DNA of 50,136 nucleotides. Origin: an uncultured Alphaproteobacteria bacterium (GTDB lineage Bacteria; Pseudomonadota; Alphaproteobacteria; Caulobacterales; Parvularculaceae). Shown here piece by piece: positions 13,235-16,579 of the stretch (position 1 is the first letter of the stretch; the number at the start of each line of letters is the position of its first letter). The translations under genes were made by a program, and so were the position numbers. The notes under the pieces were generated by a model. It did no database searches and was not told where the DNA came from. It worked only from the letters and a program-made list of their open reading frames with translations. The stretch covers positions 1 through 50,136 of the forward strand of contig CADEDN010000023.1 in assembly GCA_902826095.1 (NCBI GenBank), read 5' to 3'.

Positions 13235-13350
13235 CAGGCGTCGGCGTTCCATCGGATAAGGTAACACTTGTTCGCCCGCCCTGATTGCGGCTAGCTACCG
13301 CCGATTTTGCCGGTTGCGGGGTCCGCAGCCGGAAATTGCAAGGATGCTCA

Positions 13351-14772
13351 ATGCCGACCCCGATCCTGATGCCAGCGCTCTCGCCGACCATGGAGGAAGG
13401 AACCCTCGCCAAATGGAAGGTGAAGGAAGGGGACAAAATATCGTCGGGCGACGTCATCGCCGAAATCGAGACCGACAAGGCGACGATGGAAGTCGAGGCG
13501 GTTGATGAAGGCGTCCTCGCCAGAATTCTCATTCCCGCCGGCACAGAGAATGTGAAAGTCAACGAAACGATTGCGCTGCTCGCCGACGCCGGCGAGAAAG
13601 TCGGCGACGGAAAGGCGAACGGCGCTTCTGCTCCCCCGCTTGCGGGGGAGCTGTCCGCGAAGCGGACTGAGGGGGTTCACGCAAAAGGCGCCCCCCCTCC
13701 GTCGGTCGCGCCGACACCTCCCCCGCGAGCGGGGGAGGAAAGAAGTTCGCAAACGTCGACTGATCCCGACCTTCCCGCGGGCGCCGAGATGGTTCCAACG
13801 ACAATCCGCGACGCGCTGCGCGACGCCATGGCCGAGGAGATGCGTCGCGACAAAGACGTCTTCCTGATGGGCGAGGAAGTCGCGGAATATCAAGGCGCCT
13901 ACAAGGTCAGCCGGGGACTCCTTGAAGAATTCGGACCGACGCGCGTCATTGATACGCCGATCACGGAATATGGCTTCGCCGGGCTCGGCGTCGGCGCCGC
14001 TTTCGCCGGCCTGAAACCGATCGTCGAGTTCATGACGTGGAACTTCGCCATGCAGGCGATCGACCATATCATCAACTCGGCGGCGAAGACGCGCTATATG
14101 TCCGGCGGCCAGATGGGCTCGCAGATTGTCTTTCGCGGGCCGAACGCCGCCGCCAGCCGCGTCGCCGCGCAGCATTCGCAGGACTACGCCGCCTGGTACT
14201 CGAACATTCCGGGGCTTATCGTGATTTCGCCCTATAGCGCGGCGGACGCCAAAGGGCTCCTCAAGGCGGCCATCCGCGACCCGAACCCGGTCGTCTTCCT
14301 TGAACACGAACTTCTCTACGGCGACACGATGGACGTGCCGAAAGTCGATGACTGGATCATCCCGATCGGCAAGGCGAAGATCGCGCGCGAGGGAACGGAC
14401 GTGACGATCGTCTCCTATTCGCGCGGCGTCAAATTCGCGCTCGAAGCGGCGTCGAAACTGGCGGAAGAAGGCGTTTCGGCGGAAGTGATCGATCTTCGCA
14501 CCTTGCGCCCGATGGATGTCGAGACCGTCATCGAATCCGTCAAGAAAACGAACCGCGTCGTCACCGTCGAGGAAGGCTGGGCGCCCTGCGGCGTCGGCGC
14601 CGAGATCGGCTGGCAAGTAACGCAGCACGCCTTCGACTATCTCGACGCGCCGCCCGCGCGCGTGACGCAGGAAGACGTGCCGCTTCCGTATGCGGCGAAC
14701 CTTGAAGTGCTGAGCCTTCCGAACGCGGACAAGATCGTCCGCGCGGTGAAGGGTGTGATGTATAGGGAGTAG
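13351..14772 (+). CDS. pdhB: Pyruvate dehydrogenase E1 component beta subunit with N-terminal lipoyl domain
   Basis: 473 residues. Residues 1-80 are a lipoyl domain with the lipoylated Lys43 in 'IETDKATME'. About residues 94-131 are a Pro/Ala-rich linker encoded by a palindromic repeat. From about residue 147 the transketolase-like E1-beta domain runs to the end ('[23 protein letters not shown]', '[14 protein letters not shown]'). E1 alpha2beta2 decarboxylates pyruvate with ThDP and transfers acetyl to lipoamide. A lipoyl domain on E1-beta is known from Zymomonas and rhizobia. pdhA is not in the window; pdhC follows after an intervening GFA gene. The start is placed by homology with the pdhC lipoyl domain. 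Confidence 0.95.
13631..13737. repeat. Palindromic repetitive element, in frame within the pdhB linker
   Basis: Two inverted half-elements. The left half (13631-13675) holds two hairpins, CTCCCCCGCTTGCGGGGGAG and GTCCGCGAAGCGGAC, then GAGGGGG. The right half (about 13692-13737) is a diverged inverted version ending CTCCCCCGCGAGCGGGGGAG. It contributes codons for '[15 protein letters not shown]' and 'PPPRAGEE' with no stop. The left 45 nt are identical to 15555-15599 in pdhC. Confidence 0.9.
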
Positions 14773-14797
14773 GATCTGTTTTGCGAGCATTGGCGAA

Positions 14798-15247
14798 ATG
14801 ATCTACTCCGGCGCCTGCCACTGCGGAAAACTAAAAGCGTCCTTCAAAACGCAGAAGACGCCGCAGGAACTCGGCGGCCGCACTTGCCAGTGCGAGTTCT
14901 GTCGGCGCGTCGGCGCGATCAACATTTCCGATCCGGAGGGCGAGGTCGTCATCGACGCAATGGCCAACAATATCATCCGCTACCGCTTCGCGCTGCGGAC
15001 CGCCGACTTCCTGATCTGCAAACATTGCGGAGTCTACGTCGCGGCGGCGACGGGCGAAGGCGCCAATATCCGCTCGACGATCAATGTGGCGGGGCTGCGC
15101 ATGGCGGCCTTTCTGGGCATTGAAGAGGCGCCGATGGACTACGGAACCGAAACGACGGAGACGCGCATCGCGCGCCGCGCCGCGAAATGGACGCCGACGC
15201 GCTTTACCGATAAAGACCTCAATTCGTCCTATTTCGGACCTCACTGA
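14798..15247 (+). CDS. GFA (CENP-V/glutathione-dependent formaldehyde-activating) family protein
   Basis: A 149-residue zinc protein of the GFA fold. Cysteine motifs appear in order: 'CHCG' (residue 8 on), 'CQCEFCRR' (about 30-37) and 'CKHCGVY' (about 75-81), which together bind the structural and putative catalytic zincs. Gfa itself was proposed to speed S-hydroxymethylglutathione formation, but most members are uncharacterised. It lies between pdhB (25 nt upstream) and pdhC (12 nt downstream) on the same strand, an unusual interruption of the pdh operon. The ribosome site is weak. Confidence 0.87.
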   Translation: MIYSGACHCGKLKASFKTQKTPQELGGRTCQCEFCRRVGAINISDPEGEVVIDAMANNIIRYRFALRTADFLICKHCGVYVAAATGEGANIRSTINVAGLRMAAFLGIEEAPMDYGTETTETRIARRAAKWTPTRFTDKDLNSSYFGPH

Positions 15248-15259
15248 CGGAACCGCTGA

Positions 15260-16579
15260 ATGCCCACCCCGATCCTCATGCCCGCGCTGTCTCCGACGAT
15301 GGAGGAGGGAACGCTCGCCAAATGGAAGGTCAAGGAGGGGGACAAAGTCTCCTCCGGCGACGTCATCGCCGAGATCGAGACCGACAAGGCGACGATGGAG
15401 GTCGAGGCGGTCGATGAAGGCATCGTCGGCAAGATCGTCGTGCCGGCCGGCACCGAGAATGTGAAGGTCAACGCGACGATCGCGATCCTCCTCGGCGATG
15501 GTGAGAGCGCCGGCGATGTCTCAAACGCGCCGGCGAAGGCGTCGAATGGTTCAGCTCCCCCGCTTGCGGGGGAGCTGTCCGCGAAGCGGACTGAGGGGGC
15601 TCTCTCAACGGGCGCCCCACCGCCGTCGCCTGCGGCGCTGCCTCCCCCGCGAGCGGGGGAAGAGAAAAAATCGAACGGCCGCATCCATGCGTCGCCGCTC
15701 GCAAGGCGGCTCGCCAAAGCGGCCGGCGTCGATCTCGCGGCGCTGAGGGGGAGCGGCCCGCATGGCCGGATCGTCAAGCGCGATGTCGAAGCCGCCCCCA
15801 AAGGCGCGGCGCTGAAGGCGCCCGCCCAGGCGTTCGCGCCGTCGCCCGCCGCGGTCGATCCTCGCCTTTATCCGGCCGACAGCTACATCGCGGTCAAGCT
15901 CGACGGCATGCGCAAGGTGATCGCGCGCCGCCTGACGCAATCCTTCAACAACGAAGTTCCGCATTTTCCGCTCAACATCGACATTGAATTGACGAAGCTC
16001 CTAGAAGCGCGCGCGGCGCTGAACGCCGCTTCGCCGAAGGATGGGGAGGGCGCGTACAAGCTCTCTGTCAACGACTTCGTCCTCAAGGCGTCGGCGATGG
16101 CCTTGAAAAAAGTCCCGAACGCCAATGCAACGTTTACGGATGAAGCGATCCTCCTCCACAAGCACGCCGATATCGGCGTCGCGGTGGCGATCGAGGGCGG
16201 ACTCATCACGCCGATCGTCTGGAAGGCGGAGACCAAGGGCCTCAAACAGATTTCCGCCGAGGTGAGGGACATGGCGGCGCGCGCCCGGACGAAGAAGCTG
16301 AAGCCCGAGGAATATCAGGGCGGCACTTTCTCGGTTTCAAATCTCGGCATGTTCGGCATCACGTCCTTCGCCTCGATCGTCAATCAGCCGCATGGTGCGA
16401 TCATGTCGGTCGGCGCCGGCGAGGAGCGGGCGGTCGTTCGCGGCGGACAAATCGTCATCCGCGCTATGATGACGGTGACGCTCACTTGCGACCACCGGGT
16501 CGTCGACGGCGCGGTCGGCGCCGAATTCCTCGCCGCCTTCAAGCAGTTCATCGAAGAGCCGACATCAATGTTGCTTTGA
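15260..16579 (+). CDS. pdhC: Pyruvate dehydrogenase E2, dihydrolipoamide acetyltransferase
   Basis: 439 residues. Lipoyl domain 1-80 with Lys43; linker about 81-138, of which 37 residues come from a palindromic repeat; peripheral-subunit-binding domain about 140-178 ('[25 protein letters not shown]'); then the acetyltransferase core to the end, with the catalytic 'DHRVVDG' motif near residue 415. It forms the cubic or icosahedral core of the complex, accepting acetyl from E1 and passing it to CoA. The lipoyl domain is very similar to that of pdhB. The downstream methyltransferase starts four nt after this stop. Confidence 0.96.
15555..15661. repeat. Palindromic repetitive element, in frame within the pdhC linker
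   Basis: Second copy of the element in pdhB. The left half 15555-15599 is identical over 45 nt to 13631-13675; the middle differs; the right half again ends in CTCCCCCGCGAGCGGGGGA. It begins at the same codon phase as the pdhB copy and encodes the same length of 37 residues ('[15 protein letters not shown]' ... 'PPPRAGEE'). Confidence 0.9.

Follow-up and report, generated by a model that had tools for sequence, protein, structure and literature searches.

An in-frame palindromic repeat as a probable source of linker DNA in two pyruvate dehydrogenase genes of an alphaproteobacterium

Introduction

In the 50,136-nt stretch of DNA analysed here (the window), from an uncultured alphaproteobacterium that groups with the Parvularculaceae, the pyruvate dehydrogenase (PDH) genes pdhB and pdhC carry the same compound palindrome in the linkers that follow their lipoyl domains. 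Is this DNA an ordinary linker, or a mobile repeat that has come to be read as one? A reading of the window made from its sequence alone (the sequence-only reading) had proposed that a palindromic element was adopted as linker and was then either inserted twice or homogenised by gene conversion. Palindromes within protein genes are known as Rickettsia palindromic elements (RPE), which are said to go back to Ogata et al. (2000, 2002). From comparison of the element with copies in its own genome and with related genomes, it is concluded that a mobile palindrome was very probably inserted in frame in the PDH linkers and would be read through as linker.

Architecture of the element

Both the pdhB and the pdhC lipoyl linker contain the element, which is about 117 nt long and in frame with the gene (Table 1). 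Its position had been recognised correctly, with the second copy at 15555-15661, and its extent too narrowly: with the ends set by eye from the ends of copies elsewhere in the genome, the unit spans about five more nucleotides on either side. The two copies are aligned without gaps over 124 nt at 84% identity. As the sequence-only reading had described, the first 45 nt are the same (45/45) and the last 20 nearly so (19/20), and the lipoyl-domain DNA of the two genes has diverged at third positions (67% identity there, 83% overall). It was also right that both copies share a codon phase (phase 1 of both open reading frames) and are free of stops; the 37 residues assigned to them are to be corrected, since 107 nt correspond to 35.7 codons and touch 36-37.

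In pdhB, a left arm (13631-13675) and a right arm (13693-13737) of 45 nt each show 82% complementarity, and this palindrome is the longest among the 14 inverted repeats listed in the window (arms of at least 18 nt, at most 120 nt apart). A 20-nt core, searched with up to 3 mismatches, gave 8 matches in the window, all within the pdhB and pdhC copies, against 0.01 expected. The predicted RNA fold of the pdhB element reached -87.8 kcal/mol (z -8.9 relative to shuffled sequence), and that of the pdhC element z -4.6.

Copies elsewhere in the genome

The pdhB copy was searched by BLAST against the genome of the window (G000; 3.79 Mb, 98.67% complete, 58 contigs), and at least 71 matches were obtained and merged by hand to at least 38 sites, a lower bound because 40 of 86 first-look candidates were scored. 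A genome-wide count of the core had been named beforehand as a test of the proposal, and the core is indeed repeated across the genome. The exact pattern CCCCCGCNNGCGGGGG occurred 29 times, and its reversed control 0 times. Many copies have the common layout CTTTGCTCCCCCG..CGGGGGAGCTGTC-hairpin-GACTGAGGGGG, centre, CCCCCTCCGTC-hairpin-GACACCTCCCCCG..CGGGGGAGGAAAG, in which the centre is very different in length and sequence among copies; in some copies the halves stand in the opposite arrangement, or a single half is found.

By a simple codon-usage gene model, 26 of the at least 38 sites were assigned to intergenic DNA, 11 to the inside of genes and 1 to a gene end. An NCBIfam scan covered 10 of the 11 gene-internal hosts (some frames being clipped by the locus edge), the eleventh being a 1623-aa protein. 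Hosts above the cut-off were PdhB, PdhC, an SO2930-type cytochrome, squalene-hopene cyclase, LeuRS, IleRS and UvrA; a further E2, an amidohydrolase and an error-prone DNA polymerase were named below the cut-off. The genic copies stand in several frames and in both orientations, so that no particular peptide is required.

Carriage by a plasmid or phage was rejected: a search of 72,556 plasmid and 50,697 phage records gave no match at a cut-off of E 1e-5. In the LeuRS frame (L008; G000 C5:26710-29809), a second stretch, AAPHPVIPENAEGIYPGPRSESGAPTSGGPGSPPPRGSGRDDTAG, follows about 40 residues past the element and looks like an unrelated repeat in frame. Four near-identical intergenic copies with similar flanks were also noted in G000 (C36:113-251, C28:43807-43945, C16:29018-29156 and C6:154783-154921); three of them lie less than 1 kb from a contig end, and they are perhaps part of a larger mobile unit.

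Occupied and empty sites in relatives

Matches to the element at E 0.001 were obtained in 37 of 60 family genomes, the own genome counted, and no match was obtained anywhere in G002, G004, G007 and G008. When the linkers of relatives were aligned, as had been suggested, those of both pdhB and pdhC in the same-genus genomes G004, G007 and G008, and that of pdhB in G002, were found to be without the element. The full insertion in pdhC is common to G000 and G001, and pdhB of G001 is split on two contigs, each ending within the element. The pdhC element is also present in G006, G027, G062 and G064, the last two of which were chosen because they matched the element and are not a random sample; altogether 6 of the 31 pdhC linkers read in the family carry it. 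On a tree of the catalytic domains (G005 left out), this distribution needs at least 4 changes.

A corresponding pattern was seen in the hopene cyclase, for which an empty site was found in 14 of 14 relatives aligning on both sides: the flanking blocks are 0-27 nt apart in the DNA of these relatives, and the insert in G000 occupies residues ~426-464. The junction comprises 38-42 residues in 7 relatives (G001 included) against 79 in G000; it was readable in 9 of 16 loci, and the pattern used for the reading failed to match the remaining 7. The same position in the hopene cyclase (L213) of G064, which belongs to another genus, is occupied by an insert of this element family, with a junction of 77 residues, whereas G001, G004, G007 and G008 are closer to G000 on the tree and lack it. 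There have thus been two or more insertions at this site, or many losses of an old one. Among relatives, further hosts were another E2 (G005) and a ValRS-like frame (G022). The empty sites give the change its polarity, that of insertion. Together with the dispersed core, the element-free linkers of the same genus support the proposal that a palindromic element was adopted as linker.

Contigs that end in or at the element were seen in G001 (C99, C139) and G072 (C35, C41, C53, C65). Draft assemblies are thus broken up by the element, and annotated genes, among them important ones such as pdhB of G001, can be cut short by it.

Sequence change after insertion

The frame is open across the element in all 6 pdhC genes that carry it (6/6). 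Between G000 and G001, the pdhC element differs by 8 synonymous and 5 non-synonymous changes, with a ratio of non-synonymous to synonymous rates (dN/dS) of 0.25 against 0.02 for the lipoyl domain; the values for the element were 0.34 for G027-G062 and 0.39 for G027-G064. Judged from these values and from the higher ones given below, the peptide that would be translated from the element seems at most weakly constrained, the constraint being weak or absent, and the insertion would be nearly neutral. The predicted fold of the pdhC element is weakened in G001 (z -2.7 to -3.7) and G006 (z -3.7 to -3.8), and loss of the hairpin appears to be limited to some lineages. The proline plus alanine fraction was 0.43 in element-coded linkers and 0.38 in element-free linkers.

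Palindromes of other families in PDH linkers

A survey of 104 pdhB and 80 pdhC linkers, all free of N and at least 60 nt long (which left out G005 pdhC), was made against matched control stretches 240 nt downstream of the linkers. A fold of z <= -3.5 was reached by 25 of the 184 linkers and by 0 of the 184 controls. The 25 folding linkers came from 18 loci or genomes; the L080 pdhB sequence is that of G013 pdhB, other duplicates between collections were retained, and G004 pdhB and G021 pdhC count among the 25 as candidate repeats. By inspection, an SFETP/QDE-type element was recognised in both genes of G009 and G013 and in pdhB of the same-genus G005, inside-out versions in pdhB and pdhC of Alkalicaulis, and further families in Mesorhizobium AR07, a Methyloceanibacter and a metagenome-assembled genome of the Hyphomonadaceae. 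Two Caulobacteraceae linkers (L105, L119) are of similar kind by inspection, but below the fold threshold of the survey.

The multi-copy test covered G000 and its family, G009/G013, L126 and L139 pdhC; G017 gave no match to the G009/G013-type element in it. The pdhC element of Mesorhizobium AR07 had at least 122 matches in its own genome (40 of 169 candidates scored), and the four best other full-length matches listed fall in open frames, which we take to encode another E2, GlyS (twice) and a UvrD/PcrA-like helicase. The RIME elements of rhizobia are paired palindromes of ~100 nt known as intergenic; the Mesorhizobium element looks to be of this kind. Copies in Alkalicaulis lie in what are presumably a glyS-like frame and a further E2-like frame, and a copy in G009 in what is presumably a glyS-like frame. 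The PDH linkers of other Alphaproteobacteria are colonised by different palindrome families.

It is about an even chance that, in Alphaproteobacteria, mobile palindromes find a standing nursery in the lipoyl linkers of 2-oxoacid dehydrogenases (E1-beta, E2 and related E2s), where unrelated families would supply linker peptide independently of each other and recombination between paralogues would spread the insertions. If so, linkers of a core enzyme complex would regularly be renewed from selfish hairpin DNA.

Proposed course of events and alternative explanations

In the proposed course of events, a GC-rich mobile palindromic repeat of ~110-140 nt, consisting of two inverted halves of ~45 nt round a variable centre, would have been inserted in frame into the PDH linker between lipoyl domain and core. 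Such an element, with no stop in several of its frames and with many codons for Pro, Ala, Gly, Glu, Ser and Lys, would on read-through yield a linker that is probably disordered in vivo and could be tolerated by the lipoyl swinging arm. Out-of-frame or domain-breaking insertions would be purged, and because of such purging the surviving genic copies would sit at insertion-tolerant places. The element would have reached the linkers by transposition.

Several observations weigh against this account. The Y1_Tnp (RAYT-type) transposase domain PF01797 gave 0 matches in the own genome at E 0.01, in a search whose control was positive in 6 of 14 genomes, Caulobacter included, and a RAYT mobiliser was rejected on this result. 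Lipoyl linkers hold 3 of the 12 gene-internal or gene-end copies (p ~1e-9 for random placement in coding DNA), which speaks for the account; the figure ignores, on the other side, survival at permissive sites only, and it shows tolerance or preference, not targeting. The dN/dS of the pdhC element rests on few changes, and rises to 0.65 for G000-G006 and 1.3 for G001-G006. In G027, G062 and G064 this element has kept a strong fold (z -5.8 to -6.5), and between the pdhC genes of G062 and G064 (L212, L214) the element is 96.5% identical, against 75-97% in 60-nt blocks of the rest of the gene, a likeness beyond much of the surroundings that is not explained by simple decay. An AlphaFold model of PdhB built from 22 sequences was set aside as too poor (mean pLDDT 48, with values under 50 over much of the E1-beta core), and the absence of structure at PdhB residues 87-151 in it is weak evidence for that reason. 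The kept folds and the conserved element of G062 and G064, together with the very strong predicted fold of the pdhB copy and the presence of a hairpin in both genes, would be expected if the mRNA hairpin itself were functional, for example by slowing ribosomes between domains or setting the PdhB:PdhC ratio, with the peptide incidental; this is improbable, given that pairing is weaker in pdhC of G001 and G006, that such a fold is lacking in most of the PDH linkers surveyed (159 of 184 with z above -3.5) and that no Rfam family matched up to E 0.01 over 13300-16000. Even less probable is misjoining driven by the repeat during assembly, by which it would have been put in both genes: the assemblies of relatives do break at the repeat (the ends of G001 C99 and C139), but the frames are open across the junctions, both flanks match orthologous genes, and the pdhC insertion is found also in the separately assembled G001, G006, G027, G062 and G064. 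An ordinary Pro/Ala linker, palindromic by chance through repetitive codons, would agree with the similar composition of element-coded and element-free linkers, and is nevertheless next to impossible, since the same DNA stands at 26 intergenic sites and in unrelated enzymes, which refutes it, and the control stretches never reached the fold threshold.

As to how both genes of G000 came to hold the inserted palindrome, copying between the paralogues is put somewhat above independent insertion. The identity of the 45 nt is the family consensus: the intergenic copy C7:102044 carries them equally (45/45), which rules out gene conversion as a conclusion from this identity alone. This shared arm speaks for two independent same-family insertions without recombination between pdhB and pdhC, a possibility rated a little short of even. 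It is in keeping with such insertions that the pdhC centre matches some other copies equally well (at most 10/15 in the same register, 11 in any register), and that the second-best match of the pdhB copy (4.4e-29) is close to pdhC (2.2e-32) among the matches listed. The lipoyl-domain DNA of G000 and G001 groups by gene (support 84/93 for pdhB and, weakly, 80/19 for pdhC), and lipoyl-domain gene conversion in G000 was found to be unsupported. Separate hits do occur: pdhB and pdhC of L139 hold different elements by inspection, and pdhB of G005 an unrelated one. Against this, the pdhC element is the nearest genomic copy of the pdhB element in G000 (among the matches listed), and likewise in G009 (88% against 82% for the next) and in Alkalicaulis (1.6e-25 against 1.8e-14); for the pdhC element of Mesorhizobium AR07, the copy most like it, among the matches listed, is in another E2 (93% against 86%). 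The pdhB and pdhC centres of G000 match at 10/15 in a gapless alignment, a value reached by 47 of 100000 shuffles. Copying by recombination between the two genes may have taken place.

In other genomes, namely G007 (L207; support 99/99) and G033 (L211; 97/93), the lipoyl domain of pdhB clusters with that of pdhC from the same genome, a sign of pdhB-pdhC gene conversion there. In 13 of 71 genomes, the two lipoyl domains were more alike at third positions within the genome than in the best comparison across genomes.

Features of the locus

The features are collected in Table 1. The G+C content of the window is 63%. Between pdhB and pdhC lies a gene for a small CxxC-type protein (14798-15247), which we take to be GFA-like, and the spacing of pdhB and pdhC differs among relatives.

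Table 1. Coordinates of pdhB, pdhC and the parts of the palindromic element in the window
Feature	Coordinates	Strand	Basis
pdhB, pyruvate dehydrogenase E1-beta with N-terminal lipoyl domain	13351..14772	+	Open reading frame (ATG 13351 chosen); NCBIfam NF008854, E 1.1e-242
Compound palindromic element within pdhB	13626..13742	+	Inverted-repeat search, genome BLAST, RNA fold, genome-copy ends
Outer hairpin-forming unit, left; predicted pairing with 13718-13737	13631..13650	+	Repeat search, predicted fold
Inner inverted repeat, left (GTCCGC gaa GCGGAC)	13653..13667	+	Sequence
Element centre, variable among genome copies	13676..13692	+	Copy comparison
Inner inverted repeat, right (GTCGG..CCGAC)	13701..13715	+	Sequence
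Outer hairpin-forming unit, right	13718..13737	+	Repeat search, predicted fold
pdhC, pyruvate dehydrogenase E2, dihydrolipoamide acetyltransferase	15260..16579	+	Open reading frame; NCBIfam TIGR01349, E 3.5e-156
Same compound palindromic element, within pdhC linker	15550..15666	+	Inverted-repeat search, genome BLAST, RNA fold, genome-copy ends

Comparison with known systems

The first protein-coding palindromes to be described were those of Rickettsia, and lists of intragenic REPs in other bacteria have followed, according to the passages on them in PMC2229807, PMC10969869 and PMC3733652. RPE are described there as dispersed palindromes of 105-146 nt that are intergenic or in frame within conserved protein genes (PMC2229807, PMC10969869). 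The present element, a multi-copy palindrome within about this size range with 11 of at least 38 sites inside genes, resembles them by description. It differs in its host, which has a GC-rich window and groups with Parvularculaceae records and not with Rickettsia (Marinicaulis and Parvularculaceae are among the best named hits of pdhB), and in its place, as 2-oxoacid dehydrogenase linkers are unmentioned as hosts in the RPE passages of these two sources.

GTAG/CGTC REPs are given as stem-loops of 20-40 bp with an unpaired GTAG or CGTC end, and intragenic ones occur in open reading frames across many bacteria, also in Alphaproteobacteria, their hosts including uvrA, DnaE2 and tRNA synthetases; REP dimers or groups encode 20-30 residues, and linkers and loops were suggested as neutral sites (parts of PMC3733652). 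Our element likewise lies in open reading frames, with uvrA, error-prone DNA polymerase and tRNA synthetase hosts. One unit of it measures ~107-117 nt and ends by eye in CTTT...AAAG, which sets it apart from the REP definition as given in that source, and membership was rejected on size and ends. The main text of PMC3733652, as distinct from its host list (additional file 3), has no occurrence of pyruvate or dehydrogenase. A literature search gave nothing on palindromic repeats in PDH or lipoyl linkers, single cases being possible in that host list. The CIR of Caulobacter and Brucella, described in part of PMC2229807 as ~110 nt with two palindromic arms, a linker and conserved GANTC sites, and listed there without an open reading frame, are similar in length, in the two arms joined by a linker and in belonging to Alphaproteobacteria; membership was rejected, as a GANTC site is present in 4 of 38 copies.

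By analogy, the element appears to work like RPE and intragenic REPs, its kind being known and its extent and place unusual. What sets it apart from both is the recurrence in 2-oxoacid dehydrogenase linkers across lineages. A longer palindrome behaves likewise in the Parvularculaceae and, by way of other families, in further Alphaproteobacteria, and the linker of a swinging arm has been hit repeatedly, an indication that such repeats are able to provide protein parts. PDH linkers can be swapped and PDH activity can be measured, and the choice between neutral junk and raw material for protein parts becomes directly testable.

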